A stretch of DNA of 64,000 bases from Thermoleophilaceae bacterium (GTDB taxonomy: Bacteria > Actinomycetota > Thermoleophilia > Solirubrobacterales > Thermoleophilaceae), in the NCBI GenBank assembly GCA_030447905.1, contig JAUJNZ010000008.1, positions 44,704 through 108,703 of the forward strand, given 5' to 3'. The translations under genes and the position numbers were made by a program. The notes under the pieces are model-generated. The model worked only from the letters and a program-made list of their open reading frames with translations, was not told where the DNA came from and did not search any database. This document shows positions 33,156 through 58,470 of the stretch, one piece after another. The first letter of the stretch is position 1; every line of letters begins with the position of its first letter.

Positions 33156-34286
33156 TTAAGGCCCGCGGTCGATGAGCCACGCGCTCACCTTGGGCGCCCG
33201 ACCAGGCAGGCGACGCGACCCCATCGCGCCGCGGATAGCTGCCCGACCCGCAGGCGTGCGGGGTAAGGCGATCGTCTCGAGGGAGGTCTCGCCGTTGGCG
33301 AACCGCGCCTTGTACGGCTCGTCGCCCAACAGGAGACGGTACTCGGCCAGGCCGCCGACGCATGCGTCGCGAATCGTGTGTGCCATCAGCACGAAGCCGA
33401 TCGAGGCCTGCTCCCAAGCTGGATCGCGGCCCGCCTGGTAGTACCAGTCGACGCCGGCGAATCGGAATCCGTACCAGGCTGCGATCGGCCGCCCCCCGAT
33501 CTCCGCAAGCCACAACCGCAGCCATCCGCGCGCCAGGGCGGCCCGGGCGAACGAGCGGTGAAACGCGCGCCTGGCCGGGGAGAACGCCTGCGATTCGTGC
33601 GCCCATCGCTGCTCGTGCAGGCGAAAGAGGTGCTCGAGGTCGTCTGCGAGTCGTGCCGGGTCGTCGGCCAGGCGGTAGCTGACTCCGTGCTCCCGAACGA
33701 GCTTCCGTTCGCGCCGGCGCACCTGCTGGCGGAAGTTCGCGCTGCGGGAGGCGAGCAGCTCTTCCCAGCTCATGCCGTCGAGACGGAGCACCGGGCTCGG
33801 TTCGGTCCGCACGACCGTACCTCCGAGGTGGGAACGCCACCTGTGCTCGGCGGCAAGACGCTCCACGAGCACGAGATCGACCCGACCGGGGATCGAGTCG
33901 ATCGCCTGGCCAAATGCCCGCCCGACCGCCGAGCGGTCGCCGGGCGCGCAGATCGGACCAAGGAGGTCAGCCGGGCCGTGACCGATGAACCGCACGGTCT
34001 TGAACGGCGCCTTCGAGGACGAGCAGAGCGGCAGGATCCCCACGATCGATCCATCCCGTGCCCGGCACGCGCGCACGAGCAACCGGTGGTTGCGGCCAAG
34101 CTCTGCCGCCCACGCCGATGCCCATTCCCAGGTCGCGAAGACGTTGCCGCTGGCTTCGGCCAGGCGTTGCCAGTCGCTGCGCAGAGCGTCGAGGTCGTCG
34201 ACGCTCTCCACGCACAGCTCCTCCGGCTCGGCGCCAGATGCGGCTGAAGCGGAGGCGCGAGCGGTCCGCTGCGCCTCCTCCGACAC
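33156..34286 (-). CDS. FemAB-like (CelD/BioF2 type) GNAT acyltransferase
   Basis: The 376-residue protein is a double-GNAT-fold acyltransferase. It shows the N-terminal WQRLAEASGNVFATWEWASAWAAELG segment, the central RSANFRQQVRRRERKLVREHG basic helix, and the C-terminal AWYGFRFAGVDWYYQAGRDPAWEQASIGFVL core. Relatives occur in exopolysaccharide clusters, where they are thought to add acyl or aminoacyl groups to the polymer or its precursors. It faces a second, divergent family member at 34379. The N-terminal 25 residues are Ala/Glu-rich and may not be structured. Confidence 0.8.
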   Translation of the reverse strand: MSEEAQRTARASASAASGAEPEELCVESVDDLDALRSDWQRLAEASGNVFATWEWASAWAAELGRNHRLLVRACRARDGSIVGILPLCSSSKAPFKTVRFIGHGPADLLGPICAPGDRSAVGRAFGQAIDSIPGRVDLVLVERLAAEHRWRSHLGGTVVRTEPSPVLRLDGMSWEELLASRSANFRQQVRRRERKLVREHGVSYRLADDPARLADDLEHLFRLHEQRWAHESQAFSPARRAFHRSFARAALARGWLRLWLAEIGGRPIAAWYGFRFAGVDWYYQAGRDPAWEQASIGFVLMAHTIRDACVGGLAEYRLLLGDEPYKARFANGETSLETIALPRTPAGRAAIRGAMGSRRLPGRAPKVSAWLIDRGP

Positions 34287-34378
34287 GTAGCGAGCATAGT
34301 CACGCGCCGTGGCTCGGCGGGCCGTCGGCGAGCGTTGAGGTGCGAAACCTCAAGCCGAACGCCGAACGCCCGGATAGG

Positions 34379-35458
34379 GTGACCGGCGTGCCGGAGCTCC
34401 GCCTCGAGTGGATCGTCGACGAGCACCGTTTTGCCGCCGTCGAGGCGGCATGGGACCTGCTCGCGGCCAAGGAACCGAGCCCCTTCGCGCGTCATGCGTG
34501 GTTCGCGCATTGGTGGCGGGCGTTCGCCGTGGACGCGTCGCTAAGAGTCTGCGTGCTCTGGGAGGGCGACACCCTGGTGGGAGCGGCTCCGCTTGTTGGC
34601 GAGTCGCGCAGGCTCACCGCCATGGTCAACGACCACACCCCGCTCTACGCGCCGTTCGCTCGCGACGAACGGGTGCTGGCGGCCCTCGCCGAGGCCGTGA
34701 TGGGGACGGGCTCCGGCGAGGTGGAGCTGGGTGCGCTTCCCTCCGACGGCGAGGTGCTCAGGCGCCTCCGACGGGCGAGCGACGAGGCGGGGCGCAGCGC
34801 GGTGGAGGAGCCCCAGCACGTCTCGCCTTTCGTCGACATGTCGGGCAGCTTCGAGCAGTTCAAGGCCGAGAGCAAGCCGCGCTGGGGAGCGCCGCTCGAG
34901 CGCTTTCGGCGCAAGATGGGACGCGAGCACGGCGCGACGTTCTCGCTCGCCGAGTCGCCCGTCGACCTCGACCGAGAGCTCGAGCGCGGTCTGCGCGTCG
35001 AGTCGAGCGGATGGAAGGGCCGAGCCGGGACCTCCATCCTCTCCCAGGCGAGCACCGCCTCCTTCTACCGCTCCGTCGCCCGCGCCTACCACGGCTTCGG
35101 AGAGCTGAAGCTGTCGGGGATCTCGCTGGACGGGCAGTTGGTGGCCTTCGACATGTCCCTGCTTCACAACAACCGGCTCTGGCTCCTCAAGACCGGCTTC
35201 GACGAGTCCTATCGCCGCCTCGCGCCCGGGCTCGTGCTACGGCTCTCGATCATCGAGCGGGGCTTCGAGCTCGGCCTGGCGGGACACGAGTTGCTAGGCG
35301 ACGACTCGGAGTGGAAGCGCAAGTTCGCCAACGGGCACCGGGCGCACTGTCGACTTCGGGCGTACCGGGCCCGACCCGCTCCGATGTTCCGCTATGCCTA
35401 CCGGCGCTGGACCCGCCCTCGCCTGCGGCGCATGTACCACCGCGTGCGAAGCCGTTGA
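34379..35458 (+). CDS. FemAB-like (CelD/BioF2 type) GNAT acyltransferase
   Basis: The 359-residue protein resembles the divergent neighbour: AAWDLLAAKEPSPFARHAWFAHWW, SKPRWGAPLERFRRKMGREHG, GISLDGQLVAFDMSLLHNNRLWLLKTGFDESYRRLAPG, and LLGDDSEWKRKFANG. GTG 34379 or 34388 can start it; neither has a strong ribosome binding site. Its 3' end overlaps the convergent glycosyltransferase gene by 61 bases. It is probably an acyl decoration enzyme of the polysaccharide locus. Confidence 0.78.
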   Translation: MTGVPELRLEWIVDEHRFAAVEAAWDLLAAKEPSPFARHAWFAHWWRAFAVDASLRVCVLWEGDTLVGAAPLVGESRRLTAMVNDHTPLYAPFARDERVLAALAEAVMGTGSGEVELGALPSDGEVLRRLRRASDEAGRSAVEEPQHVSPFVDMSGSFEQFKAESKPRWGAPLERFRRKMGREHGATFSLAESPVDLDRELERGLRVESSGWKGRAGTSILSQASTASFYRSVARAYHGFGELKLSGISLDGQLVAFDMSLLHNNRLWLLKTGFDESYRRLAPGLVLRLSIIERGFELGLAGHELLGDDSEWKRKFANGHRAHCRLRAYRARPAPMFRYAYRRWTRPRLRRMYHRVRSR

Positions 35459-36672
35459 GCGCCACTTCCTGGGGAGCGCGGGCCCTCCCCCGCCCTCGAG
35501 ACCTGGCCATAGCACTCGAGCAGCGCCCGCTCCGACTGGTCCCACGACAGCGTGGTCTCGACGCGCCTGCGACCCTCGCGCCCCATCCGCTCGCGCGCGC
35601 CGGGGTCGTCGAGCAGACCGGCGATGCGCTCGGCGAAATCCCGCTCGTCGTTCGGCTGCGCATAGACGGCCGCCTGTGCCGCCGAGACCCGGGCCTCTCG
35701 CAGATCGAACGAGACGATCGGCTTGCTCATCGCCATGTACTCCATGATCTTGTTCATCGTCGAGGCGTCGTTCAGGGGGTTGAGAGGGTCTGGGGACAGG
35801 CAGACGTCAGCACTAGAGAGGTGGCGCAGGACATCGTCGTCCGAAACGCGGCCCGTGAACGTCACGTGGTCCGTAAGACCGAGCTCGCGAGCGAGGACGA
35901 CCAGCGAGGGATACTCGTCCCCCGAACCCACGAAGACGGCGTGCCAGTCGCGGCGATCGAGTTCGTCTCGCAGGCAGGAGAGCGCGCGCAAGGCGTAGTC
36001 GACCCCGTCTTGAGGTCCCATCACGCCCAGGTAACAGAGCAGGTTCGACTTCCCGCGCTTTAGCGAGGGGTCCGGGGGTACGGGAACGAACCGGTCGAGG
36101 CGCGGCCCGCTGCGGACGACGAACACCTGCTCGGGCGACTTGCCCCCACGCGAGAGCGCGGCGGCGCGGTAGGTCTCGTTGGTGGCGATCACCACGTCTG
36201 CGAGCCGAAACGTGATCCGCTCGAGCGCGAGCAACGCCCGGTGAACTGGGCCTGGCCCGCGGTCGAAGCGCGACAGGTACAGCTCGGGAACGAGATCGTG
36301 GTGGTCGAAGACGATCCGCGCCCCCGCAAGCTTGTGGGGCAGGGCGGCGAGGAAGAGAAGGTCGGGCGGGTTGCAGATGTGAACGACGTCGAAGCGACCC
36401 AGCCGCAACCCGAGGACCATCATCCGCAGCAGGGCGGCGCCGTACTCGCGCCCGTAGCCGAGAGGCCCACCGGTGGCCGGGCGCAGGGGAAACCGATGGA
36501 TCCGGACGCCTTCGAGCTCCGCATAGGCCTCGGTGTCATGGCGCTCGCCTCGCGGGCAGACGACGCTAACGTCGTACCCCGCGGCGGCGAGGGCGCGGCT
36601 CTCCTGCCACACCCGCCGGTCGAACGGGACGGACAGGTTCTCGACGAGGACGAGGACCCGGCTACCAGCCAA
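35398..36672 (-). CDS. Glycosyltransferase family 4
   Basis: This is a GT-B glycosyltransferase. The acceptor domain starts VLVLVENLSVPFDRRVWQES, and the donor domain shows YLGVMGPQDGVDYALRAL, FTGRVSDDDVLRHLSSADVCLSP, and the ADP/UDP/GDP-sugar loop NDASTMNKIMEYMAMSKPIV in place of the usual EGxP motif. It is the last gene of a tightly overlapping four-gene operon (11-base overlap with the dehydrogenase gene). Donor sugar cannot be told. The GDP-sugar dehydrogenase next to it makes a uronic acid donor conceivable. Confidence 0.88.
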   Translation of the reverse strand: MAGSRVLVLVENLSVPFDRRVWQESRALAAAGYDVSVVCPRGERHDTEAYAELEGVRIHRFPLRPATGGPLGYGREYGAALLRMMVLGLRLGRFDVVHICNPPDLLFLAALPHKLAGARIVFDHHDLVPELYLSRFDRGPGPVHRALLALERITFRLADVVIATNETYRAAALSRGGKSPEQVFVVRSGPRLDRFVPVPPDPSLKRGKSNLLCYLGVMGPQDGVDYALRALSCLRDELDRRDWHAVFVGSGDEYPSLVVLARELGLTDHVTFTGRVSDDDVLRHLSSADVCLSPDPLNPLNDASTMNKIMEYMAMSKPIVSFDLREARVSAAQAAVYAQPNDERDFAERIAGLLDDPGARERMGREGRRRVETTLSWDQSERALLECYGQVSRAGEGPRSPGSGAQRLRTRWYMRRRRGRVQRR

Positions 36673-37981
36673 CGCCCACGTACCCGGGCTGACCGCGGCG
36701 CTCCTCCGATCCGGGCAGGCGAACGAGGTCGACGATCAGCGAATCGCCGTCCGCACGCGCCAGGGCCTCGACGACCTCGGGCTCCCTGGTCCCGACGATG
36801 CAGACCTCCGCGTGGTCGACGACCTCCGCAGGGGATTCGGCCAGGAGACGGCTGAGGTGGGGGAGGTGCGCATCGAGGTATTCGCGGTTAGACCCGACGA
36901 GGCGAGACAGGGCGACGGTGCCGTCGTACACGCGGAGCTCATAGCCCTTGCCGAGGAGCCGTTCGGTGAGGTCGACGAGCGGACTTTCCCGCAAATCATC
37001 GGTCCCCGACTTGAACGCCAGGCCGAGAACGCCCACCCGGCGCCGGCCCGAGGCGGCGATGAGCTCGAAGGTCCGGCGCAGGTGCGCCTCGTTCGAGGCG
37101 AGCACGCTGCTCAGGATCGGCACCTCGACGTCCTTCCGGCCGGCCTGATGGACGATCGCCCGCAGGTCCTTGGGAAGGCACGACCCGCCGAAGGCGAAGC
37201 CGGGGGACAAGTAGGCGGAGCTGATGTTGAGTTTCGTATCGGAGCGAAAGACCTCCATGAGCTCGTGCGAGTCGAGGCCCAGGCTCCGCGACAGAGCCCC
37301 GATCTCGTTGGCGAACCCCACCTTGAGCGCGTGAAAGGCGTTGTCGGCGTACTTGATCATTTCGGCGATCTGCAGCGGAAGGCGGAAGCGAGGGCCGGGC
37401 AGGCCGTCGTAAAGCCTCGCCACCGGTTCGCCGCTCTCCTCGTCGAGCTCTCCGACGACGGTCTTCGGAGGGTCGTGGAAGTCGCACACGCTAGTCCCCT
37501 CGCGCAGGAACTCGGGATTGACGCACACGCCGAAGTCGCGGCCTGCGGTCCGGCCGGAGGCGCGCTCGAGCAGCGGCACGAGCCGCTCCTCGCAGGTTCC
37601 CGGGAGCATCGTGCTCCGAAAAGCGACGGTATGGCGCCCTTCTTTCTCCGCTAGTGCGGCACCGATCTGCTCGCTGACACGCTCGACGAATGCCGTGTCG
37701 ATGCCACCGTTGGGAGCCGAGGGCGTGCCCACGCAGACGAGCGAGAGCTCGGAGCTCCGAACCGCCTCAGCGGCGTCGTCCGTCGCGCGCAACGCTCCCG
37801 AGCCGACCGCCTCCGCCGTGAGCGCCCCCAGGCGATCCTCGACCACCGGAGCCTCGCCGCGGTTGATCCTCTCGACCTTCCCGGGATCAACGTCGACCCC
37901 GACGACCTCGTGTCCGCGTGCGGCGAAGCACGCCGCCGAAACACACCCGACGTACCCGAGCCCGAAGACGCTCAGCTTCAT
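36662..37981 (-). CDS. GDP-mannose 6-dehydrogenase-like nucleotide-sugar dehydrogenase (AlgD family)
   Basis: It oxidises a nucleotide sugar to the uronic acid with two NAD+. The 439-residue protein begins MKLSVFGLGYVGCVSAACFA and has RSTMLPGT, NPEFLREGT, PPKTVVGELD, EMIKYADNAFHALKVGFANEIG, and catalytic Cys268 in GFAFGGSCLPKD. GLAFKSGTDDLRESPLV and a terminal GVGW complete it. Length, Cys268 position and the TVxGELD motif fit AlgD-type GDP-mannose dehydrogenases better than UDP-glucose dehydrogenases; this is judged from memory of the families. ATG 37981 overlaps the previous stop by four bases. The product would be GDP-mannuronate. Confidence 0.85.
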   Translation of the reverse strand: MKLSVFGLGYVGCVSAACFAARGHEVVGVDVDPGKVERINRGEAPVVEDRLGALTAEAVGSGALRATDDAAEAVRSSELSLVCVGTPSAPNGGIDTAFVERVSEQIGAALAEKEGRHTVAFRSTMLPGTCEERLVPLLERASGRTAGRDFGVCVNPEFLREGTSVCDFHDPPKTVVGELDEESGEPVARLYDGLPGPRFRLPLQIAEMIKYADNAFHALKVGFANEIGALSRSLGLDSHELMEVFRSDTKLNISSAYLSPGFAFGGSCLPKDLRAIVHQAGRKDVEVPILSSVLASNEAHLRRTFELIAASGRRRVGVLGLAFKSGTDDLRESPLVDLTERLLGKGYELRVYDGTVALSRLVGSNREYLDAHLPHLSRLLAESPAEVVDHAEVCIVGTREPEVVEALARADGDSLIVDLVRLPGSEERRGQPGYVGVGW

Positions 37982-38877
37982 GAGCGGCCGGACTCTCGAT
38001 CGCGTGAGGCCATCGAGGTCGACCCCCACCCTGACCGGTCGGTGATCGGGGCCGCTGCGGGTGTGCCGCTCGGCTGCGGACCGTCGCGTCGCGAACGAAC
38101 TCGGTCCAGCGTGTCCTTCCACGGCGAGAGGACGATGCGCCGTCCCGGGGGCGAGAGCTTGAGAGAGAAGCGCGCTCCGTCGTCGCGGTGGTCAACGGCT
38201 ACGCGCGGGATGCTTAGGATGTCGTCGGGCTGACCGCGGTCGTTGCGGACGCTGAAGGCGAAGCGGTAACCGGCGGCCGCGGCGGCGTCCGCCACGCGAG
38301 CGTCCCACTCGCCGAAGGGATATGCGAGCACGTCGCATCGCCCGAGCCGCTCGCGCACACGCGAGCGCGAGTCGTGGAGCTCCTGCCGCAGGCCTTCGTC
38401 TCCGAGCCGGGTGAGGTGGGCATGGGAGCAGGTGTGGCTGCCGAACTCGATACCCGCTGCGGCCATCTCCTCGACCATCGGCCAGCTGAGCGACCGCATG
38501 ATCTGCGGGTACGCCGCTGCATGTCCTCTCACCTCCGGCCAGGCGAACGCGGCCTGCCGGTCGACGAGATCCGGGAGAACGAAGACGATCGCCGGCCACC
38601 CATACTCACGGAGCAGTGGAAATGCGCTAGTGAAGTTGTCGACATAGCCGTCATCGAAGGTGAGGAAGACCTGCGGGGTGCTGAGGCGCCGCCCCGAGGC
38701 GAGCGCGTCGAGGGTGGGCCGGCCGCCCGGGGCCCAGCCTCGCCGCCCAAGCGCGGCGAGCTGGCGTTCGAACAACTCCGGGGACAGCGACAGGAACGGA
38801 GGACCACCCTCGGCGATCGAGTGGTAGCACAGGAATGCCGCCCGGCGCGTACGGTTGCTCATCGCCCGGGGCGTCAT
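37978..38877 (-). CDS. Polysaccharide deacetylase (NodB homology domain)
   Basis: The 299-residue protein has the carbohydrate esterase family 4 motifs: CYHSI, the metal/catalytic TFDDGYVDNF, the zinc-binding SHTCSHAHLTRL, and YPFGEWD. There is no signal peptide, so it acts in the cytoplasm or on a lipid-linked intermediate, as in other exopolysaccharide loci. Overlaps at both ends (ATGA with the neighbouring genes) show that it is translated within the operon. The last 50 residues are Arg/Ser/Pro-rich and may be a disordered tail. Confidence 0.87.
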   Translation of the reverse strand: MTPRAMSNRTRRAAFLCYHSIAEGGPPFLSLSPELFERQLAALGRRGWAPGGRPTLDALASGRRLSTPQVFLTFDDGYVDNFTSAFPLLREYGWPAIVFVLPDLVDRQAAFAWPEVRGHAAAYPQIMRSLSWPMVEEMAAAGIEFGSHTCSHAHLTRLGDEGLRQELHDSRSRVRERLGRCDVLAYPFGEWDARVADAAAAAGYRFAFSVRNDRGQPDDILSIPRVAVDHRDDGARFSLKLSPPGRRIVLSPWKDTLDRVRSRRDGPQPSGTPAAAPITDRSGWGSTSMASRDRESGRS

Positions 38878-40034
38878 GGCGAGAGCTCCTGATAGACGGC
38901 CTCGAGCGGCGCGAAGACTTCGCGGTGGTTGAGGCGGCGGGCTCGCTCGCGGGCGGCCTCGCCCAGCGCCCGGCGCCGCTCGGCATCCTCGACCAGGGAG
39001 GCGATCGCCTCCGCGAGTGACCTCGGGTCGCCGGGCGGGACGAGCAGCGCCTCGCTGCCGTCATCGAGAACATCGGGAACGCCTCCGACCGCGGTGGCGA
39101 CGATCGCCCGGGCATGCGCCATAGCCTCGAGCAGGGCGACGGGAAGCCCCTCGGACAGCGAAGGGAGCACGAAGACTCCGGCCGAGGAGAGAAGGCGCTC
39201 CTTGGCGCCCCGGTCGAGCCACCCCGCCCAGGTGACGGCATCCGACCGAAGCACCTCCTCCGCCTCCATCGGCGGCTCGCCCGGCCCCGCCAGGGTGGCT
39301 CGTGCCTCCGGGCAGCGCTCGACCAGCGACGAGAGGGCCTGGACGAGGACGCGTCCTCCCTTGGCGGGATCGACGAACCCCCCCATGTAGAGGATGCTCA
39401 CGGTCCCCGCCTCGTCGTCAGGGCCGGCCGCGCGTCGCTGGGCGTCCACGAAGGGCGCGGCGTTCGGCACCACGATGACGTCTTTGGCCCCGAAGCGTGC
39501 CTCGATCTCTCGCGCACCGGCCGCCGAGACACTCACAACGCGATCGGAGGCGGCGAACGCCCCGCGGAATGTCGCGCGGGCGAGGCGCCCGATTCGGGCG
39601 TCGAAGGCCGCGATGTCTCCCACGCCCGCGTGCAGGTGCAGCAGCACCCGGCAGCCGAGGGCCTTGGCGAGCCAGACGACGACGGTCTTTCGGTAGAGGC
39701 TTCCCCGCACGGCGGTATGCACGTGGACCACTCGCCGACCGCCCCGGAGCGACCAGCCCAGAAGGCGGAGGAGCGCGAGTACGAACGTGCCCAGCCTCCC
39801 AAAGCGAGACGCGCCGCGATAGGTCGGGATGGCCTCAAGCCCGAATCGAGAGCCGAGCGGAGAAGCGAGCAGGTCGCGGATCACGGCGGCCATGCCTCCG
39901 TCGGTTGCCGGGTCCGGGCCGAGGTGGACGACCCGGGGCGCTCGATCCGCGGACGCGCGACCTCTCCGGGATCGACGTCGGGGCGGGGGGTGTCCCGAGA
40001 GGGTCGGCTGGGCCATCGACGTAGTTCGCTTCAT
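38874..40034 (-). CDS. Glycosyltransferase family 4
   Basis: The GT-B protein shows VVHLGPDPATDGGMAAVIRDLL, VHVHTAVRGSLYRK, ILYMGGFVDPAKGGRVLVQAL, and the donor-binding VFVLPSLSEGLPVALLEAMAHARAIVAT. The start is uncertain: ATG 40034 gives MKRTTSMAQP, ATG 40016 is an alternative, and a frame open to 40112 would run past the divergent amidotransferase start. It is the first gene of the four-gene operon (GT, deacetylase, dehydrogenase, GT), each overlapping the next. Confidence 0.85.
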   Translation of the reverse strand: MKRTTSMAQPTLSGHPPPRRRSRRGRASADRAPRVVHLGPDPATDGGMAAVIRDLLASPLGSRFGLEAIPTYRGASRFGRLGTFVLALLRLLGWSLRGGRRVVHVHTAVRGSLYRKTVVVWLAKALGCRVLLHLHAGVGDIAAFDARIGRLARATFRGAFAASDRVVSVSAAGAREIEARFGAKDVIVVPNAAPFVDAQRRAAGPDDEAGTVSILYMGGFVDPAKGGRVLVQALSSLVERCPEARATLAGPGEPPMEAEEVLRSDAVTWAGWLDRGAKERLLSSAGVFVLPSLSEGLPVALLEAMAHARAIVATAVGGVPDVLDDGSEALLVPPGDPRSLAEAIASLVEDAERRRALGEAARERARRLNHREVFAPLEAVYQELSP

Positions 40035-40092
40035 CCGGAGCGTAGTCGCAACCCTCTCCCGAGCGCGAAACTCGAATGCCATGATAAACGCG

Positions 40093-49391: not shown

Positions 49392-50533
49392 CCGAGCCGC
49401 GATTCGGTGTGGGCCGCCGGGCGCCCGGGGCCGAGATGGCTCCGATAGGCCTCGAGCGTGAGCTCCGCGACTCTGCTCCAGCTGGTCCCTGCCCCCGAGC
49501 GTGCGGCGGCTGCACCCATGGCCTCCGCCCGACCGCGGTCGGTGACGATCTCGAGCACCGCTTCGGCGAGCGCCCGCGGGTCCTCGGGCGGGACAAGCCG
49601 CCCGAGGTCGGGTGAGACGAGCTGGGGGAGGCCTCCGACCGAGCTGGCGACGATCGCTCGGCCGTGAGCCTTCGCGAGCGAGCCGACGCCGCTCTGGCTC
49701 GCCTGGCGGTAAGGCAGGACCACGCACGTCGCGCCTTCGAACAGCTCGGGTAGCTCGTCCTCTGGCACGTGTCCGTGGCGAAGCGTCACCCGCGCGTCGG
49801 AGAGGATCGGGTGGTCGAGGAGTGGGCCACTGCCGGCCACGACGAGGCGAGTCTCGGGCGCGGAGGCCCAGACGGTGGGCAGCGCGTCGAGCAGGGTGTC
49901 CAGCCCCTTGTAGAAGGAGAGCCTGCCGAAGAACAGCAGGGAAGGCTTCTGCGGCAGCGGCCGGTGCAGCGGCTCGTCGACGCCATGGGGGATGACGGCG
50001 ACGGCGCCCTGCGGGCGCTCGCGCTCGATCAGCTCATCGCGCAGGGCGTCCCCATGGACGAACACGAGGGACGCCGCACGGATGAGCCGGCTGCGGACCG
50101 CCCGCTTCCAGCGGCTCCTGATCGTGTCGCCCGGGTGCGGCGAAGGGTCGTGCACTGTTATCGCCAGCCTGGAGGGCGACAGAGGGCTCGCTCCGATGAG
50201 CCGGACGTCGTCCACCACCGAGTCCTGCAGATGGACGACGTTCGGAGCGAAGCCCCTCGCCGTCCGCCGCGCCCTCCAGGCCGTGGGTAGGGCAGAGAGG
50301 TCGCGCACGCGGCCGTCGATCTCCGCGCGCTCGGCCGCGCCGCCGAGCCGCTGCTCGGCAAAGGTCCGCATGGCCCCCGCCTCGCCCCCGAACTCGTGGT
50401 CGTGGGTTCGGCAGAGGAGAGACACCGGGCAGTCGTGGGCGATCAGCCCGCCGGCGAGCCCGATGCTGTACTTCGCGAAATGGTCAAAGGCCAGCAGGAC
50501 GCGCGGAGGGTGTGGCGCCTCACGGCGAGTCAT
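49388..50533 (-). CDS. Glycosyltransferase family 4
   Basis: The 381-residue GT-B protein shows VLLAFDHFAKYSIGLAGGLIAH, VVHLQDSVVDDVRL, LLFFGRLSFYKGLDTLLDALP, and VVLPYRQASQSGVGSLAKAHGRAIVAS, where SQSGV replaces the usual EGFP-type donor loop. Its start overlaps the end of the O-antigen ligase gene by 14 bases, so it is the last gene of the BY-kinase/ligase/GT operon. Its stop overlaps the stop of the convergent fusion gene by four bases. Confidence 0.88.
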   Translation of the reverse strand: MTRREAPHPPRVLLAFDHFAKYSIGLAGGLIAHDCPVSLLCRTHDHEFGGEAGAMRTFAEQRLGGAAERAEIDGRVRDLSALPTAWRARRTARGFAPNVVHLQDSVVDDVRLIGASPLSPSRLAITVHDPSPHPGDTIRSRWKRAVRSRLIRAASLVFVHGDALRDELIERERPQGAVAVIPHGVDEPLHRPLPQKPSLLFFGRLSFYKGLDTLLDALPTVWASAPETRLVVAGSGPLLDHPILSDARVTLRHGHVPEDELPELFEGATCVVLPYRQASQSGVGSLAKAHGRAIVASSVGGLPQLVSPDLGRLVPPEDPRALAEAVLEIVTDRGRAEAMGAAAARSGAGTSWSRVAELTLEAYRSHLGPGRPAAHTESRLG

Positions 50534-52022
50534 GGCCGTCGCGGCGCCACGCGGTCTCGGGCGCCGCGCTGCGCGCGGTGCTCGCGACGATCGCTCCGCT
50601 GATCACTCCGATCGCCGCGGTCATGTCGGGGACGCTGAAGTAGAGCATCACGACCGAGCTGAGCATGATCGTCGCGAGCCCCACGCCGCAGGCGGCCATG
50701 CTCGGGTCTCGCTCGTTTCTCCTCCACGCCAGCCGGAGCGTCTTGCCGAGGAAGACGAGAAAGGCGATGAGGCCCGGCACCCCGGCCACGAGCACCAGGT
50801 AGAGATACTGATTGTGAAGGAAGCGGCGGGGCAGCCGCACGTAGCGGTCCTCGACGGTGAAATCGGCGATGTGGGCGCCATACGGAGCCCCGACGCCGAC
50901 CCCGAGAACCGGGTGATCGAGAGCCGTCGCCCAGCCCCGCTCGATCTCGTAGCGGCGGTCGTCGGCCGAGCTTGACTCGCCCACGGCCTGGAGGTTGCCG
51001 AGCGTGGCGGCGCGGTCGATCAGCGGCGTGACCCGGGAGCCCTGAGGTGCGGTGGGCGCGAGGAAGGCCATGAGGGCGATGCCGGCGGCACCGACGGCCA
51101 CGCCGCGGGCGAGCGTGTAGCGCACCTGGCCGCGAGAGAGGACGAGCAGCAGCCCGAGGCCGACGAGGAGGCCGACCCACATGTTGCGGTTGAAGGAGAT
51201 GGCGAGGTTCAGCGCCTGGCCGGCGAGCACCCCGGCCCAGAGCAGCCGTCGGGTACCTCGCGCCTGGCCGAGTTGTACGACCGCGAACCAGAAGAGGCCG
51301 TATGCGAGCCCCAGGCCCGGCAGCCGGACGCGGCTGATGAGCCCGAGCCCCTCCTGGGCGCGGATGAACTGCCGGCCGGGGTCCTGGAGCAACTCGCCCA
51401 CCCCCTGATGGAGTGCCGCGACCAGGGCCACTAGGCCCGTAACGCTGGCGATCACCGCGGCGACCACCAGCACGCGGTGCGCCGAGCGTGCGTCAGGGAA
51501 GAGCCGTACCCCGACGTAGAAGAGCGAGAGCAGCACGAACGGGCGTCCCCAGTTGACGACATCGGTGGGCTCGACCCGGCCGACGCTGAGCGCGAGGGCC
51601 GCGGATAGAGCGAGCAGGCCGAAGAAGATGGCCAGCGCCCCCCCGGCCGTCCCTCCCCACGTCGCCCGCCGCGGCCGCACGAGCGCAACGAACAGGACGC
51701 CGAGCAGGACGATCTCGTGCAGCCGGATGCTCAGCGCGCCGGCTTCGATCGCGAAGAACGACTCATGAAAGGCTGAGTCGGTAAGCACCAGAAGGGCGGT
51801 TACGCCGAGCAGGGGCCACCGCAGGAACAACGCGAGCACCACGACCGCCGCCGGGGCGAGGAGGAGGACGTTCAGGCGCGGGTCGGCGATGACCAGCGCG
51901 AGCAACGCCTCGGCCACGAGCGTGACCGCGACCGCCGCGACCGCCGCCTGGCGGCTACCGAGTCTGACCCCTGCGCTACTGAGACGCCGAAGCGGCGGAC
52001 TGTCCGTAGTAGTAATAGTCAC
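50520..52022 (-). CDS. O-antigen ligase/polymerase-like membrane protein
   Basis: The 500-residue protein has about 12 membrane helices and the Wzy_C domain pattern: a large periplasmic loop (GSRVTPLIDRAATLGN, DDRRYEIERGWATALDHPVLGVGVGAPYG) followed by RFLHNQYLYLVLVAGVPGLIAFLVF. Such proteins polymerise repeat units or transfer them to an anchor. The GTG start lies within the last codons of the BY-kinase gene (47-base overlap), which is unusual; the tyrosine-rich kinase tail is read in another frame there. It is co-transcribed with the kinase and a glycosyltransferase. Confidence 0.85.
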   Translation of the reverse strand: MTITTTDSPPLRRLSSAGVRLGSRQAAVAAVAVTLVAEALLALVIADPRLNVLLLAPAAVVVLALFLRWPLLGVTALLVLTDSAFHESFFAIEAGALSIRLHEIVLLGVLFVALVRPRRATWGGTAGGALAIFFGLLALSAALALSVGRVEPTDVVNWGRPFVLLSLFYVGVRLFPDARSAHRVLVVAAVIASVTGLVALVAALHQGVGELLQDPGRQFIRAQEGLGLISRVRLPGLGLAYGLFWFAVVQLGQARGTRRLLWAGVLAGQALNLAISFNRNMWVGLLVGLGLLLVLSRGQVRYTLARGVAVGAAGIALMAFLAPTAPQGSRVTPLIDRAATLGNLQAVGESSSADDRRYEIERGWATALDHPVLGVGVGAPYGAHIADFTVEDRYVRLPRRFLHNQYLYLVLVAGVPGLIAFLVFLGKTLRLAWRRNERDPSMAACGVGLATIMLSSVVMLYFSVPDMTAAIGVISGAIVASTARSAAPETAWRRDGHDSP

Positions 52023-53622
52023 CGCCGTGGACCGGCCTAGCGAAATTGGCGACGAGCCCGAGAGGACGTCCGCCGAGCAGAGCGACCTGCTTGCGGAAAT
52101 CGGAGGCCGCGTCGCGCGTCGTCTCGCCCAAGCCGCACACGATGATCACGCCCGAGACGCTCGGGACGAGGGATAGGGCGTCGCTGACCATCGACAGGGC
52201 GGGCGTGTCGAGGATCACGAGGTTGAACCGTGACTCGAGCACTTCGAGCACCGCACGCATGCGCGTGCTCTCGAGCAGTTCGGTCGGATTCGGCGGTGGC
52301 GGGCCGGCCCGGACCATGGTCAGCTGGCGAGTGTCGGCGCCCCCGCCCGAGCTCGGGACCGGGACGTTGACCAGGCAGTCATCGAGGTTCGCTCCGGTTA
52401 GCAGCGACGAGAGGCCCAGTGCGGGCTGGCGACCGTTGGGCAGGGCGGCCTGCTTGTGCAGGTCGGCCTCGACCAAGACCACGCTGTCGCCCATGGAGGC
52501 CATGGTCATGGCCAAGTTGCGCGCGACCGTCGACTTGCCCTCCCCGGCCAGAGCGCTCGCAACGAGTACCGAGCGGATGGGCTCATCGACACTGAAATAG
52601 CGGAGGTTCGCGCGCAGGGTGCGAAAAACCTCGGCGTCGCGCGAAGGCAGCCATGTATCCCCGCCCTCGGTCTCCGAGGCGGTCACGCCCTCGCTACGCG
52701 GAACCCGAGTCAGGATGGGCAGTTCGAAGAGCTCCTCGAGTTCCTTCGCGTCTCGAATCCGCCGGTCCGACCGCTCGAGCAGGGCCGCGAGCCCGAAGCC
52801 GACGACCCCGCCGACGATCAGACCGAGCAGGAGGTTGCGCAGCGGCTTGGGGGAGGAGGGGCTGCTGGGCGGCGTCGCCGTCTGAACCAGCTCCGCGTCT
52901 CCGGTCTGCACGGCCCGGGCTACCTGAAGCTGCTCGAGGCGATCCCGCAGCTCTTGCCCGTCTTGGCCGGAGCGCTTCGCCGGCGACAGCGCAGAGAGGT
53001 TGGCGCGTACGAGGCGGAGCGCGCTGTCGACGCGTCTCTGATCGGCTTCCCGGCGGAAGGCGATGTACGCTTCGCCGTAGGCGTCGGCCAGAGCCGCCGC
53101 CCGCTTCGGCGTGTCGGCCTCCGCCTCGATCTCCACGAGGTCGGCTTCCCCCGTCGACTTCACGTTGATCGACTCCTCGACCTGCTTGCCGGTGGTGCCA
53201 CGCCCGAGGTCCTTCGCGGCTCGCGCGGCTACGACCGGCAGCGCAATGAGCTCCTCGTTGGTCGCGGCTTCCCGAGAGGGATCGATCGTCGGCCTGCTCC
53301 CCTGGGTGTCCAGCAGATCCTCGGCATCGCGGAAGAGGACGGTCGAGGAGGCGGTGTAGCGCTCTGGCTGCAACAGGGAGAAGAGCAGCGCGAGCAGCGG
53401 AACCAGCACGAGCGCCTGCAGGAAGACCCACTTGCGGTTGCGGACGATCCGAAGCGCCTGGTCGACCACTCCCTCCTCGGGCGGGGCGTCCTGGCCACTC
53501 CGTCCGCCTCGCGTAGGGACGGCGGGGCCCCGGGCGTGCCCACGTCCCGGAAACGTGAGGCCGGCGTAGGATTGCTGCGAGTAGAGGCTCGCCTCGGGCG
53601 GGTCGTTGCGGTGAAGGGTCAT
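51976..53622 (-). CDS. Bacterial tyrosine kinase, Wzz/CapA-CapB fusion type
   Basis: The 548-residue protein joins a chain-length (Wzz) domain with two membrane helices (VFLQALVLVPLLALLFSLL near the start, LRNLLLGLIVGGVVGFGLAALLE in the middle) to a cytoplasmic BY-kinase. The kinase has Walker A SALAGEGKSTVARNLA, Walker A' VVLVEADLHKQ and Walker B LVILDTPALS. It ends in a tyrosine cluster (GGDYYYYGQ), the usual autophosphorylation site. It controls polymer length and export. The partner phosphatase is probably encoded at 53838, transcribed divergently. Confidence 0.92.
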   Translation of the reverse strand: MTLHRNDPPEASLYSQQSYAGLTFPGRGHARGPAVPTRGGRSGQDAPPEEGVVDQALRIVRNRKWVFLQALVLVPLLALLFSLLQPERYTASSTVLFRDAEDLLDTQGSRPTIDPSREAATNEELIALPVVAARAAKDLGRGTTGKQVEESINVKSTGEADLVEIEAEADTPKRAAALADAYGEAYIAFRREADQRRVDSALRLVRANLSALSPAKRSGQDGQELRDRLEQLQVARAVQTGDAELVQTATPPSSPSSPKPLRNLLLGLIVGGVVGFGLAALLERSDRRIRDAKELEELFELPILTRVPRSEGVTASETEGGDTWLPSRDAEVFRTLRANLRYFSVDEPIRSVLVASALAGEGKSTVARNLAMTMASMGDSVVLVEADLHKQAALPNGRQPALGLSSLLTGANLDDCLVNVPVPSSGGGADTRQLTMVRAGPPPPNPTELLESTRMRAVLEVLESRFNLVILDTPALSMVSDALSLVPSVSGVIIVCGLGETTRDAASDFRKQVALLGGRPLGLVANFARPVHGGDYYYYGQSAASASQ

Positions 53623-53837: not shown

Positions 53838-54665
53838 ATGCGGACTAGCCTCGTCGGCGTGATCGACCTCCACGTCCACGCGCTTCCCGCGATCGACGAC
53901 GGCCCGACCACCGTCGATGGAAGCCTTGAGCTGCTGCGCTCCGCCTACGCGAAAGGGACCGAGGTAGTGGCAGCGACCCCACACCTCCGCCAGGATTTCC
54001 CGGGAGTCCGCGTATCGGAGATCGCCGCGCGCTGTCGTGCTCTCGCGGATGCCCTCGATAGCCACGGCGCAGGGGTGCGCTTGATCCCCGGCGCCGAAGT
54101 CGACTACGAGTGGGCCCGCGACGCATCGGCCGAGGACCTGGGTCTCGCTTCCTTCGGTCAGGCGGGGCGTGACATCCTGCTCGAGACGCCGTACGGGGCG
54201 ATTACGCCCGCTTTCGAAGACGTTCTCTTCCAGCTTGCGACCAAGGGCTTTCGACTCACGCTCGCCCATCCCGAGCGGAATGCGACCTTTCAGGCGGCGC
54301 CGGAGCGACTCGAGGCCATCGTCGGGCGTGGCGCCTTGGTTCAGTTGACCGCGCGTACGCTGCTCGGAAACCCTCGCCGCTCGGCCTCGGCGCGACTCGC
54401 GCGCACGCTCCTCGAGCGGGGGCTCGCGCACGTGATCGCCTCCGACGCGCACAGCGCTGCGGCGGAGCGGGCGCCCGGCCTTTCTCGAGCGGTCGGCCTA
54501 GCGACGTCGGTTGTCGGTCCCAGAGCCGAGTGGATGGTCAAAGATGCGCCCGCGGCGATCCTCGCCGGTGAGCCGCTTCCCGTACCCCCACCCATTCGTG
54601 CGCGGTCAGGGCGACGCCTCGCCCGTGGATTGCCGGGCCTGCTTGCCCCGCGGCGAGAACGCTGA
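53838..54665 (+). CDS. PHP-type tyrosine-protein phosphatase (CpsB/YwqE family)
   Basis: It dephosphorylates the BY-kinase tyrosine tail. The metal-binding PHP motifs are present: DLHVHALPAIDDGP, VVAATPHLR, RLIPGAEVDY, LAHPERNATFQ and IASDAHSAAAERA. ATG 53838 was chosen because the longer frame to 53781 adds a basic, unconserved stretch; a GTG at 53859 directly before IDLHVH is also possible. With the divergent kinase gene it forms the usual kinase/phosphatase pair of polysaccharide loci. Confidence 0.85.
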   Translation: MRTSLVGVIDLHVHALPAIDDGPTTVDGSLELLRSAYAKGTEVVAATPHLRQDFPGVRVSEIAARCRALADALDSHGAGVRLIPGAEVDYEWARDASAEDLGLASFGQAGRDILLETPYGAITPAFEDVLFQLATKGFRLTLAHPERNATFQAAPERLEAIVGRGALVQLTARTLLGNPRRSASARLARTLLERGLAHVIASDAHSAAAERAPGLSRAVGLATSVVGPRAEWMVKDAPAAILAGEPLPVPPPIRARSGRRLARGLPGLLAPRRER

Positions 54666-54692: not shown

Positions 54693-56198
54693 CTAGTAAG
54701 CCCCACGTCGCGACAACACCGCCGGCACGGTGGCCAGCAGGATCTCGATGTCGCGGGCGAGCGACCATCCCGCCACGTACTGATAGTCGAAGCGAATCAT
54801 CTCGTGGAAGGGAATCTGGGAGCGACCCGAGATCTGCCATAGCCCGGTCATGCCGGGCCGCAGATCGAGCCGACGCTCGTGCCAGTCGTGCTCGAGCGCG
54901 GCCGTCTCTTCGAGGATGAGGGGACGGGGACCGACCAGGCTCATATCGCCGCGGAGGACGTTGAAGAGCTGGGGCAGCTCGTCGAGCGAGAGGGTGCGCA
55001 GGAGCGCCCCGACGCGGGTGATCCGCGGATCGTCCTTGATCTTGAACATGACGCCGTCGTCGAGGTCGTTCTCCTTGGCGTACTCGAGCTTGCGCTGGTC
55101 GGCGTCGCGGTACATCGACCGGAACTTGAGCACCTCGATCGTCCTGCGGCTGCGGCCCGATCGGCGCTGGCGGAAGAAGACCGGACCCGGGGACTCGAGC
55201 TTGATGGCAATGGCCAGGGCGGCAAGGAGCGGGGCCAGCACGATGAGGGCCAGAGCCGAGCCGGCGACGTCGAGCATGCGCTTCGCCACTCGCGAGGCCC
55301 GGGTTAGCTTCGGAGCACCGATCGAGAGCAGCGGCAGCCCGCCGATCTGATCCAACGCGCGGGCGCCGCCGATGAACTCGAACAACCGCGGGACGATGTC
55401 GACGGCCACCTGGCGATCACGGCAGGCTCTGATGCTCGAGAGCAGCTGCTCGTGCGTCGCGCGGGAGAAGGCGATGATCACCCGGTCCACGCTCTGCTCC
55501 TCGAGGACGTCGACTAGGTCGTCGAGCCGGCCGAGGTGGGGTAGGTCGGTCATCTGCGGCTCGTGGATCTCGTCGTCGACGAGCCCGAGGGGGATGAGCC
55601 CATAGTGCGCCGAGCTCGTGAGCTTGCGGGCGACCTGTCCGGCGACGAGGCCCGAGCCGACGATCAGGGTCCTCTGCTGCAGGGCGGTCAGCCGGTGGGC
55701 GAGCGCCCGCGCTCCCGCCCGACCGACCCCGCTGAGCAGGCCCACGGCCGGAACGGAGACGAGTCCGGCCATCGGCGCGCTGCGCGTGCCGAGAGCGACG
55801 GCGACCCCGAAGATCGGCCAGGAGGCGACGATCGAGGCGGTCAGGAGGCGCGGGGTCTCCGGGACGCCGCTCACCCACGAGCGCAGATCGTCGCCCGTGT
55901 AGAGACCGCACGCAAACGCGAGCGCCGGCCAGAGGAGGGTGACGCCGACGACAAGCCCGATCCCCGCGCCGGACTGGACCCCGGCGGCGAGGGCCACGAG
56001 CGCTCCGGCGCCCAGGCCGGCGAGCAGGTCGGCGAGGAAGAGCAGACGGCGCAGGATGCTCCAGCGCTCAGCTCCCCGGGTGCGCTCGGTGGCGCGGCCG
56101 GCCTCGAGGACCTCGACACCCTCGGACTCATCTGTGGGAGGGGGGCGGAGGCTGCCCCGGAAGAGGGTCCCAGGATCTTCCGTGACTTTACCGATCAT
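54693..56198 (-). CDS. Undecaprenyl-phosphate sugar-1-phosphate transferase (WbaP/polyprenyl glycosylphosphotransferase)
   Basis: It starts repeat-unit synthesis by moving a sugar phosphate to undecaprenyl phosphate. Four hydrophobic helices lead the protein. A Rossmann-like CoA-binding segment (QQRTLIVGSGLVAGQVARKL, DRVIIAFSRATHEQLL) follows, then a membrane helix and the catalytic domain. Visible motifs are KRMLDVAGSALALIVLAPLLAALAIAIKLESPGPVFFRQ (split here between SPGPVFFRQ and its helix), FRSMYRDAD, LRTLSLDELPQLFNVL, and PGMTGLWQISGRS. ATG 56198 removes about 115 low-complexity residues of the longer open frame. It is convergent with the phosphatase gene. Confidence 0.88.
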   Translation of the reverse strand: MIGKVTEDPGTLFRGSLRPPPTDESEGVEVLEAGRATERTRGAERWSILRRLLFLADLLAGLGAGALVALAAGVQSGAGIGLVVGVTLLWPALAFACGLYTGDDLRSWVSGVPETPRLLTASIVASWPIFGVAVALGTRSAPMAGLVSVPAVGLLSGVGRAGARALAHRLTALQQRTLIVGSGLVAGQVARKLTSSAHYGLIPLGLVDDEIHEPQMTDLPHLGRLDDLVDVLEEQSVDRVIIAFSRATHEQLLSSIRACRDRQVAVDIVPRLFEFIGGARALDQIGGLPLLSIGAPKLTRASRVAKRMLDVAGSALALIVLAPLLAALAIAIKLESPGPVFFRQRRSGRSRRTIEVLKFRSMYRDADQRKLEYAKENDLDDGVMFKIKDDPRITRVGALLRTLSLDELPQLFNVLRGDMSLVGPRPLILEETAALEHDWHERRLDLRPGMTGLWQISGRSQIPFHEMIRFDYQYVAGWSLARDIEILLATVPAVLSRRGAY

Positions 56199-56439
56199 GG
56201 TCGTGGGCGCCTTCTCGCCGCTCGTTCTTGCCGGTCCACCCGGCGCGACGGTTGTCTGAGGGCCGCCAGGGGCTGACCTTACTCGGTTTGGCGGTGAAGG
56301 GGTCGTAGTGGACCGGCGCGGCCGGCTTCGGTCGCCGTCTCGGCGCACCGCCGAGTCGATCTGCGTGAGGCTCCCTGTAGGGTCTTCATCTCCAGCTCGC
56401 GTTGCCTCCCTGGGGGAAGCCGGGTCTCCCGCGTCGAAC

Positions 56440-58470
56440 ATGTCCTCTCTGTTATCGGCACGAGACCCGGGGGCTGTAGGAAAGTTGCGGAGGGATCGAT
56501 CGGTGGCCGGGGCGCTCGTGGCGCTGCCCGGAGCGCTCACTCTTTACCTCAGCTTCAGCAGCGGAGGCTTCTTTCCGGACGCGACCGGACTGGCGGTGGT
56601 CGTGGTTTCGCTCGTCCTCGTGGTGCGAATCACGCTGGCCGAGAGACCATTCGCCGGAGTTTCCGGACTCGTCCTCCTCGCCGGGGGGGCGCTGACCCTC
56701 CTCGCGATCTGGACGCTCCTGTCGGCGCTCTGGTCGGGGTCTCCGGCTCGCGCCCTGCTCGAGTTCGACCGGACGCTCCTCTATCTACTCGCCCTCGTCA
56801 CGCTCGCCACCTTGCCCGTCACGGCGCCACGGCTCGAGTGGGCGCTGCGGGCCTTCGCCGGCGCGGTGAGCGTGGTCTGCCTGGCGGGGCTCACGAGCAG
56901 GCTGTTGCCCGACGTCCTGGCTACGGAGCCCTCGGCCCTCGTCGAGCGCCTGAGCTATCCGGTTGATTACTGGAACGCGCTTGGCCTGCTGGCCGCCGTC
57001 GGCGCGATTGCGTGCCTGCACCTGACGAGCGGACCGGGCCAGCCGCGAGCGGTGCGGGCTCTGAGTGCCGGGGCGATTCCGCTGCTCGCGTCCACGCTGC
57101 TCCTTACCTTCTCGCGCGGGGCGATCGCCGTCGCGGTTCTGGGCGCGCTCGTCTACGCGTTACTCGGGCGGCCCTGGGGCCTGCTCAGTACGGCTTTGGC
57201 CGCAGGACCGACCACGGCGCTTGCCCTCGTCCAGACCTACGGGGCCGAGCTGCTCGGCCGCGAGGGTGCCGCGGCCCCCGCTGCTATCGCGCAGGGCCAT
57301 GAGCTCGCGCCGGTCCTCCTTGCATGTGCGCTCGGGGCGGGCCTTCTCCGGCTCGGTCTCGCCCCCGTCGATGAGCTGATCGAGGGCGGTGCCAAGCGCC
57401 AGGCGGCGGCAAACGCGGGCATTCCCCGACGCGCCAAGCTGGCGGGAGGGGCGACGGTCGCGCTCGCTCTGGTCGCTCTCCTCCTGGCGCTCGACGTGCC
57501 CGACCGCGTCGAGCGCCAGTACGCGCGTTTCGTCGCGGGAGACACCCTCGCCACCGCCGACACTCGCGACCGGCTGACGAGCCCCGCCAACAACGGTCGC
57601 CTGGATCATTGGAAGGTCGCAGTCGATGCCTTCAGCGCCGCACCGCTTCGGGGCCAGGGCGCCGGGAGCTACCAGATCCTATGGGCTCGCGACCGGGACT
57701 CGGACTTCAATGTCCTCGACGGCCACTCGCTGTATCTCGAGTCGCTCGCTGAGCTCGGCTTGATCGGCTTGGGCCTGCTCGTCCTCGTGCTGCTGGCCCT
57801 CGGGGGCGCCCTCGCCGTCCGCGCCCGCGGCCGCAACCGCAGCCTCTACGCCGCCGTTCTCGCCGCCGTCCTCGCCTGGGCCGTGCATGCGGGCGTCGAC
57901 TGGCACTGGGAGATGCCGGCGGTCACAACGTGGGTCTTCGCCCTCGGTGGCCTGGCGATCGCGGCGCCTGCGGGGGAGACCGGCCGCGCCCAGGGGCCGG
58001 CACCGCTCTCGCGCATCGTGGCCGCGCTCGGGTGCCTACTGCTCGCGGTCACGCCCGCCCTCGCCGCGCTGTCCCAGCGGGCCCTCGACGAGAGCGTCGC
58101 CGCCTTTCGCCGCGGCGACTGCACCCGCAGCGTCGACGCCGCCATCACGTCGATCTCCTATCTAAGCGTCCGGCCCCAGCCCTTCGAGCTGCTCGCCTAC
58201 TGCGACGTCCGAGCGGGATTCTCGGAGCTCGCGGTCAAGAGCATGCGCAATGCCCTCGCCCGCGACCCGGCGAACTGGGAGTACCACTACGGGCTCGCGC
58301 TCGTGCGGGGCGCGGCCGGGCTCGATCCTCGGCCTCCGGCCGCAGTCGCGCTCGCCCTCAACCCCCTCAGCCCGCTGACGCAGGAGGCGGCCATCGAGCT
58401 CGGAACGGCCGACAGGTCCCCCGAATGGCGAAGGCGGGCCCTGGAGGCCCGCCTTCCGCTCGCGCCTTGA
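56440..58470 (+). CDS. O-antigen ligase-like membrane protein with C-terminal TPR-like region
   Basis: The 676-residue protein has about 12 membrane helices with the Wzy_C signature: NGRLDHWKVAVDAFSAAPLRGQGAGSYQILWA and DGHSLYLESLAELGLIGLGLLVLVLLALGG. After the last helix, residues about 565-676 are helical and TPR-like (ALDESVAAFRRGDCTRSVDAA, VKSMRNALARDPANWEYHYGLALV). ATG 56440 is favoured over a longer frame from 56308. The 241-base gap to the divergent sugar transferase has no recognisable RNA element. Two such ligases in one locus suggest separate polymerase and attachment roles. Confidence 0.83.
   Translation: MSSLLSARDPGAVGKLRRDRSVAGALVALPGALTLYLSFSSGGFFPDATGLAVVVVSLVLVVRITLAERPFAGVSGLVLLAGGALTLLAIWTLLSALWSGSPARALLEFDRTLLYLLALVTLATLPVTAPRLEWALRAFAGAVSVVCLAGLTSRLLPDVLATEPSALVERLSYPVDYWNALGLLAAVGAIACLHLTSGPGQPRAVRALSAGAIPLLASTLLLTFSRGAIAVAVLGALVYALLGRPWGLLSTALAAGPTTALALVQTYGAELLGREGAAAPAAIAQGHELAPVLLACALGAGLLRLGLAPVDELIEGGAKRQAAANAGIPRRAKLAGGATVALALVALLLALDVPDRVERQYARFVAGDTLATADTRDRLTSPANNGRLDHWKVAVDAFSAAPLRGQGAGSYQILWARDRDSDFNVLDGHSLYLESLAELGLIGLGLLVLVLLALGGALAVRARGRNRSLYAAVLAAVLAWAVHAGVDWHWEMPAVTTWVFALGGLAIAAPAGETGRAQGPAPLSRIVAALGCLLLAVTPALAALSQRALDESVAAFRRGDCTRSVDAAITSISYLSVRPQPFELLAYCDVRAGFSELAVKSMRNALARDPANWEYHYGLALVRGAAGLDPRPPAAVALALNPLSPLTQEAAIELGTADRSPEWRRRALEARLPLAP

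Follow-up and report, generated by a model that had tools for sequence, protein, structure and literature searches.

AlgG, AlgE and the animal enzyme GLCE act after export of the polymer or in the Golgi lumen, and these C5-epimerases therefore give statistical epimerisation patterns. In the alg systems of Pseudomonas and Azotobacter, an AlgD-clade dehydrogenase, a C5-epimerase and lyase-like genes share one locus, as they do in the locus described here; the bacterial source of alginate genes is debated (PMC11468063). We analyzed a 64,000-nucleotide stretch of DNA (the window; G000:C13:44704-108703) from the metagenome-assembled genome (MAG) of a soil-type actinobacterium of the Thermoleophilaceae, 2.58 Mb long and 95% complete, and found that 33.2-58.5 kb of the window is a complete Wzx/Wzy-type exopolysaccharide (EPS) locus. 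Its most interesting element is a glycosyltransferase (GT)-fused, apparently cytoplasmic C5-epimerase, which is unlike known polysaccharide C5-epimerases; in the papers searched we found no report of a GT-fused C5-epimerase, nor of C5-epimerases from Thermoleophilia. Three features, a dehydrogenase of the AlgD clade, a C5-epimerase that retains its catalytic residues and co-travelling secreted heparinase/PF14099-like proteins, give good support to a uronic acid-containing polymer. As predicted from the genes, this uronate-containing polymer is probably C5-epimerised and possibly amidated. Class-wide counts were taken over 299 Thermoleophilia genomes, and individual genomes, contigs and loci are referred to by G, C and L identifiers.

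An earlier note on this DNA had placed an exopolysaccharide locus at 33156-58470, and every component that it named beforehand was located; all but the ATPase of the bacterial tyrosine kinase (BY-kinase) exceed Pfam curated cut-offs. The priming transferase, flippase, Wzy, and Wzc/BY-kinase with phosphatase of a Wzx/Wzy-dependent EPS system are all present, and the deacetylase, the two FemAB-like proteins and the two PF04932 proteins likewise have profile matches. The genes of the locus are as follows.

33156..34286, minus strand: FemAB-like GNAT acyltransferase 1 (PF13480, 7e-34)
34058..35458, plus strand: FemAB-like GNAT acyltransferase 2 (open reading frame, ORF; probable true start ~34250; PF13480, 1e-22)
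35398..36672, minus strand: GT_a, a GT4 glycosyltransferase and AlgD companion (PF13692/PF00534)
36662..37981, minus strand: predicted AlgD-clade GDP-mannose 6-dehydrogenase (456 bits to 1mfz)
37978..38877, minus strand: polysaccharide deacetylase (PF01522, 1e-26)
38874..40112, minus strand: GT_b, a GT4 glycosyltransferase (ORF; true start ~40019 or 39893; PF13692, 2e-32)
40093..41988, plus strand: AsnB-type glutamine amidotransferase (PF00733, 2e-84; TIGR01536, 440 bits)
42127..43404, plus strand: LyA, secreted, with Pro-rich linker and C-terminal heparinase-I-like jelly-roll domain (from 42631)
43674..44156, minus strand: truncated-looking methyltransferase (PF08241, 3e-15; GC content 0.66)
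44564..45502, plus strand: LyB, with N-terminal hydrophobic segment and heparinase-I-like jelly-roll domain
45549..47051, minus strand: Wzx-type flippase (PF01943/PF13440; 49-51% to G154, G222)
47175..48302, plus strand: GTe, the GT4 half of the GT4-epimerase fusion (PF00534, 5e-30)
48303..49391, plus strand: C5-epimerase half of the fusion (PF06662 toroid, 5e-39; human GLCE, 8e-19)
49388..50533, minus strand: GT_c, a GT4 glycosyltransferase (PF13692, 5e-23)
50520..52022, minus strand: Wzy-like polymerase/ligase A (PF04932, 5e-15)
51976..53622, minus strand: Wzc-like BY-kinase with chain-length domain (TIGR01007, 112 bits versus cut-off 108)
53838..54665, plus strand: CpsB/CapC-type phosphatase (PF19567, 5e-32)
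54693..56540, minus strand: priming polyprenyl-phosphate hexose-1-phosphate transferase (PF02397, 2e-64; TIGR03025, 382 bits, over cut-off)
56308..58470, plus strand: Wzy-like polymerase/ligase B (ORF; start ~56437 or 56503; PF04932, 3e-10)

The minus-strand genes for GT_b, deacetylase, AlgD and GT_a overlap successively by 4, 4 and 11 bp and so look like a single translationally coupled operon; the BY-kinase, Wzy A and GT_c genes likewise overlap. A GT_b homologue adjoins a deacetylase in G288, G198 and G154. The secreted LyA and LyB, the epimerase-GT4 fusion and AlgD's own GT_a go beyond the earlier reading of the locus. Between LyA and LyB lies a lower-GC spacer (43405-44563) in which the methyltransferase ORF has no clear start, and which has the look of a decayed insertion.

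The epimerase half of the fusion, recognised as a C5-epimerase domain in the earlier note, matches PF06662 at 134 bits (cut-off 23.3). Glu499, Tyr500, Tyr560 and Tyr578 (human GLCE numbering), which we take to be the catalytic set of GLCE, are retained in this enzyme and in 12 of the 13 other strong EPS-type members; the 6i01 chain has Phe at 578 in the GLCE alignment. The G135 epimerase lacks Glu499 and Tyr500, and the position of human Arg563 is Tyr. PF06662 proteins occur in 165 of the 299 genomes, but EPS-type members, as judged by score, in just 14. Neither a signal nor a transmembrane segment was detected by hydropathy in EPS-type epimerases, including that of the window; in members of the other PF06662 group, for example those of G216 and G073, the hydropathy profile peaks at over 2. 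A divergent PF06662 group, with an N-terminal hydrophobic segment in some members, can be seen beside the cytoplasmic EPS type (L091, L092, L094, L096, L098).

The window epimerase forms one ORF with its GT4, stand-alone orthologues of which (46-53%) are found in G154, G222, G264 and G244. Fusion recurs in the single-contig genome G198, where the epimerase is joined to a PssE/WelK-like GT28 half directly downstream of PssD; we know of no PssE or WelK with an epimerase domain. A divergent GT4 gene lies head-to-head with the epimerase gene in L052, L053 and L055, and a deacetylase gene overlaps the epimerase gene by a few bases or more in L052, L053, L110 and L111. The features of an exported or lumenal enzyme that acts after polymerisation are missing from the window epimerase, which has no signal or transmembrane segment by hydropathy and is fused to a GT4. 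We infer a cytoplasmic enzyme with a lipid-linked acceptor, which would probably act on lipid-linked intermediates in the cytoplasm and not on exported polymer. Tentatively, a class of cytoplasmic GT-coupled C5-epimerases can be proposed, possible rather than probable in our judgement, in which lipid-linked uronates would be epimerised before export, alongside the action of a cytoplasmic deacetylase and an amidotransferase; an iduronate- or guluronate-amide polymer would then be built up one residue at a time and not remodelled once polymerised. The epimerase loci of G169 and G282 also carry secreted-looking beta-helix proteins (PF13229/NosD/Disaggr_assoc; L111:7601-9013, L112:11641-13053), which are possibly polymer-modifying.

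The dehydrogenase had been described as AlgD-like, and this assignment stands. In phmmer searches against the PDB it matches Pseudomonas aeruginosa GDP-mannose dehydrogenase (1mfz) at 456 bits over residues 1-419 with 49% identity, while the second-best match, a UDP-glucose dehydrogenase, reaches 238 bits over residues 1-356. Catalytic Lys210, Asn214, His217, Cys268 and Lys271 are kept, as is the KLN..PGFAFGGSCLPKD loop; Tyr256 is replaced by Ala, a change common to nearly all class members aligned. The protein is a true relative of GDP-mannose dehydrogenase (AlgD), and GDP-mannose oxidation is its predicted reaction. Its assignment as a UDP-glucose dehydrogenase (UGD) was rejected, since 1mfz scores far above UDP-glucose dehydrogenase and a UGD-like enzyme is encoded on contig C4. 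AlgD-clade genes occur in 11 of the 299 genomes, and the source MAG is the sole carrier in its order. Homologues of GT_a (49-63% identity) adjoin AlgD in seven loci (L101-L106, L108), which points to a travelling pair; the GT beside AlgD in L107 is just 28% identical to GT_a. Contig C4 carries mannose-1-phosphate-guanylyltransferase-like and UGD-like genes (best matches, both below curated cut-offs; for the UGD-like gene the best NCBIfam match is TuaD, 458 bits versus a cut-off of 700), so that GDP-mannuronate (GDP-ManA) and UDP-glucuronate (UDP-GlcA) may both be made. A UDP-N-acetylhexosamine (UDP-HexNAc)-type dehydrogenase gene split across two frames was observed at G000:C18:41496-42528 (L007, L008), with intact genes, 65-66% identical, in EPS loci of G288 and G264.

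LyA and LyB are 48% identical over their aligned part, and both have N-terminal hydrophobic segments by hydropathy. Their domain family is reliable in three of the 299 genomes (the source MAG, G154 and G198), each time on an EPS-locus contig; a weak match in a fourth, G175, is limited to the N-terminal part of LyA, outside the domain. PF14099 is matched by two of the seven family members (2e-7), and the G154 member is over the cut-off (31.1 versus 29.9 bits). The layout motifs of LyA and LyB align with those of clear PF14099 lyases, and Q[FW]K and FGxGxY are present; the QxH motif has Lys in place of its His, which is also seen in clear PF14099 members of G222, and in YxKxGxY Gly takes the place of the Lys. 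In Foldseek and VIA-align comparisons, models with a low predicted local distance difference test score (pLDDT) resemble ConA-like jelly rolls, namely galectins, alginate lyases of polysaccharide lyase family 7 (PL7) and accessory domains of glycoside hydrolase family 43; as there was no clear winner, the fold class alone was used. A profile search of the family against the PDB gave spurious matches only. LyA and LyB can be regarded as putative remote relatives of heparinase-I/PF14099 lyases, and we consider lyase activity reasonably likely. A third LyB-like domain, 53% identical to LyB and with an N-terminal half resembling a carbohydrate-binding module, can be found between dnaX and recR (L056:7812-9512, G000:C1).

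Lyase genes travel with both AlgD and the epimerase. PF14099 or LyA-type proteins occur in 29 of the 299 genomes and heparinase II/III proteins (PF07940) in 25. At least one of these is present in 9 of the 11 AlgD genomes (Fisher p=7e-7), and PF14099/LyA-type proteins are present in 6 of the 14 EPS-type epimerase genomes (p=9e-4), at most 11 kb away in all six, both tests leaving relatedness aside. Heparinase II/III alone showed no enrichment with the EPS-type epimerase (1 of 14 genomes). AlgD lies 0.4 kb (G031), 1.8 kb (G113), 4 kb (window) or 10.8 kb (G131) from a lyase gene, and 0.05 kb from a heparinase II/III gene in G002. The corresponding epimerase distances are 1.7 kb (window), ~2 kb (G136), 5 kb (G274), 7 kb (G288), 10 kb (G198) and 11 kb (G065); a gene placed at random would have a ~1% chance of lying 12 kb or less from a given locus. 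The G288 epimerase locus holds one heparinase II/III and two PF14099 proteins.

The uronamide proposed in the earlier note fared less clearly: an AsnB-type amidotransferase of non-housekeeping type is present, and amidation by it is plausible but unproven. The gene starts GTG-TGC-GGC at 40093, giving Met-Cys-Gly and hence the N-terminal glutaminase Cys, and the TIGR01536 score is well over the cut-off of 267 bits. Orthologues with 61-63% identity are found in the epimerase loci of G198 and G288, and one with 44% identity adjoins AlgD in G056. All four proteins have Gln in place of Glu348 of Escherichia coli asparagine synthetase B, a residue that matters for acyl-adenylate commitment; the substitution favours a non-aspartate acceptor. 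A second AsnB, on contig C3, retains Glu348 and is of housekeeping type, which rules out the window gene as the cell's sole asparagine synthetase and is consistent with its being, by sequence, a non-housekeeping paralogue.

A Wzx/Wzy-dependent locus for a uronic acid-containing exopolysaccharide is the best explanation of these observations, and one that we hold to be fairly probable. In the order of steps that we infer, the repeat unit would be assembled cytoplasmically, starting from a priming hexose-1-phosphate, and the AlgD/GT_a pair would make GDP-ManA and most likely add mannuronate. The GT4-epimerase fusion would add or bind a residue and, while the intermediate is still lipid-linked, invert a uronate at C5 to L-guluronate or L-iduronate. 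The deacetylase, which has no signal peptide by hydropathy, would remove an acyl group in the cytoplasm, the AsnB-like enzyme would probably amidate the carboxylate, and the FemAB-like enzymes may add acyl or aminoacyl groups. Wzx would then flip the unit, Wzy polymerise it and BY-kinase/CpsB control length, and the secreted heparinase-I-like proteins might trim, release or bind the polymer.

Several observations weigh against this explanation. No polymer is known, the GT4-epimerase fusion of the window is known from one MAG, and the Fisher tests ignore phylogenetic relatedness. LyA and LyB themselves fall short of the PF14099 cut-off, and the AlphaFold models of LyB and of the trimmed LyA domain are weak (pLDDT 47-48; three sequences). 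Arg259, a substrate-site neighbour in P. aeruginosa GDP-mannose dehydrogenase that is, with Tyr256, among the key inhibitor-contact residues (PMC10619135), is Ser here and Arg or Lys in all other aligned class members. The closest epimerase loci (G198, G288) are without AlgD, and G288 has a UDP-HexNAc-type dehydrogenase instead. Because these loci lack AlgD and AlgD travels with GT_a, conversion of ManA to guluronate (GulA) is just one option beside conversion of glucuronate (GlcA) to iduronate (IdoA); by our own estimate, GlcA and ManA are equally plausible substrates, neither of them clearly probable, and a HexNAc-derived uronate is about half as plausible as either.

It is a real possibility that the locus makes a glycosaminoglycan-like polymer, in which the epimerase would act on glucuronate (from UDP-GlcA made by the UGD-like enzyme of contig C4) to give iduronate beside de-N-acetylated glucosamine, while AlgD would serve a separate mannuronate side residue or be a recent addition. 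The GLCE type of the epimerase, the deacetylase/epimerase gene overlaps and the heparinase-family proteins in the G288 locus fit this, as does the PssD-adjacent PssE/WelK-like fusion partner in G198, WelK being a beta-1,4-glucuronosyltransferase; however, PssD/E-type pairs also include the galactosyltransferases Cps14F/G, the window locus has no UGD gene, and AlgD is translationally coupled to the deacetylase. An ordinary acidic EPS is unlikely. There AlgD would give ManA, the toroid would be a remnant, degenerate or structural, and the AsnB-like protein would be a plain asparagine synthetase (it passes TIGR01536, and the residue at the Glu348 position varies among EPS AsnB homologues); LyA and LyB would be lectins, in line with the galectin matches of their fold models, found alongside those to PL7 lyases. 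Yet nearly all EPS-type epimerases retain the catalytic Tyr and Glu, the genome has another AsnB of housekeeping type, and LyA and LyB share their layout with PF14099 lyases, whose Pfam cut-off is passed by the G154 relative. We consider it quite improbable that the epimerase works on an N-acetylhexosaminuronate, in a polymer like the Vibrio polysaccharide (VPS). VPS contains amidated N-acetylgulosaminuronic acid (GulNAcA) and has no assigned C5-epimerase (PMC3901696, PMC4432689), and UDP-HexNAc-type dehydrogenases occur in the G288 and G264 loci and, as a split gene of 66% identity, on contig C18, but the window dehydrogenase is of the AlgD clade and not of this type.

Next to the locus lie three further genes.

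58520..59092, minus strand: small LPFTG sorting-signal protein with two hydrophobic segments (from sequence and G198 synteny)
59091..59591, plus strand: extracytoplasmic function (ECF) sigma factor, its gene divergent from that of the LPFTG protein (65% to its G198 homologue, same arrangement)
59793..60428, minus strand: class E-like sortase (PF04203, 4e-26; NF033747, 126 bits, below cut-off 160)

The absence of an exosortase and the presence of a sortase next door, both noted earlier, held: PF09721 was not found anywhere in the MAG, and among 179 class genomes a single one has a match above the cut-off. Five Thermoleophilia EPS loci have a small LPFTG protein (94-193 aa) beside the priming glycosyltransferase or within ~2.5 kb of it (58520-59092 on the minus strand of the window, L048:9284-9865, L111:4634-4966, L112:15613-15897 and L113:17754-18155). 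Their LPFTG signals are the sole sorting signals in those loci in a six-frame scan, and several of the loci have a sortase. In the window protein (190 aa) a probably cytoplasmic N-terminus is followed by a hydrophobic segment within the chain and by the sorting signal. Its pairing with the ECF sigma factor is conserved in G198, where the priming transferase is also syntenic; one possibility is an anti-sigma-like protein that is processed by sortase. Two adjacent, long, Pro-rich ORFs with charged tails and a similar layout, possibly cell-surface paralogues, lie beside the sortase (60344-62059 and 62234-63619, plus strand).

The comparative genomics across Thermoleophilia that the earlier note had called for yielded the AlgD-GT_a pair in seven loci, the AsnB-epimerase link in G198 and G288 and the lyase association. 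Its alginate-like label could not be upheld. A Pfam/NCBIfam scan of the locus proteins (the rest of the genome was not searched) found no GT2/Alg8-Alg44-type synthase and no AlgG/AlgE-type beta-helix epimerase, which argues against an alginate system, as does the lack of AlgD in the closest epimerase loci. Wzx/Wzy and GT4 enzymes here replace Alg8/Alg44, and a GLCE-type toroid, apparently cytoplasmic and GT-fused, replaces the beta-helix enzyme. Animal GLCE and bacterial RED65_08024 of Bermanella marisrubri (PMC4432689) share the PF06662 toroid with its catalytic Glu/Tyr set, whereas in the window enzyme we saw the toroid but no beta-barrel domain; it also lacks a signal sequence and is fused to a glycosyltransferase. 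The G198 epimerase, for its part, recalls the rhizobial and sphingan PssDE-WelK glucuronosyltransferases through its PssE/WelK-like half beside PssD.

PEP-CTERM/exosortase (XrtA) loci share with the window an AsnB-type amidotransferase, FemAB-like proteins, Wzc, a priming phosphoglycosyltransferase and GT4 enzymes, and a small C-terminally anchored protein with a transpeptidase, but in the window their PEP-CTERM protein and exosortase give way to an LPFTG protein and a class E-like sortase. The resemblance drawn in the earlier note is one of outline and a likeness only, as there is no exosortase and XrtA-system NCBIfam cut-offs are not reached (for example TIGR03108, 435.6 bits versus 816.9); the arrangement looks like a Gram-positive counterpart of such loci.

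VPS of Vibrio cholerae (PMC3901696) likewise combines a C5-epimerised, amidated uronic acid in an EPS with a cluster carrying a UDP-glucose/GDP-mannose dehydrogenase gene, but its GulNAcA is amidated with glycine, and the window has candidate genes for the epimerase and amidating enzyme that are unassigned there. A GT-fused cytoplasmic epimerase, if confirmed, would fix where in the repeat unit L-iduronate or L-guluronate stands, a template-like route to defined glycosaminoglycan- or alginate-like polymers. It would provide candidate enzymes as well for polymers, VPS among them, whose epimerisation and amidation steps are unassigned. An actinobacterial lineage that clearly has AlgD would also join the bacterial sources of alginate genes under debate (PMC11468063). 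The nearest characterised polymer logic is that of VPS with its amidated GulNAcA, together with that of heparan-type GlcA/IdoA polymers.

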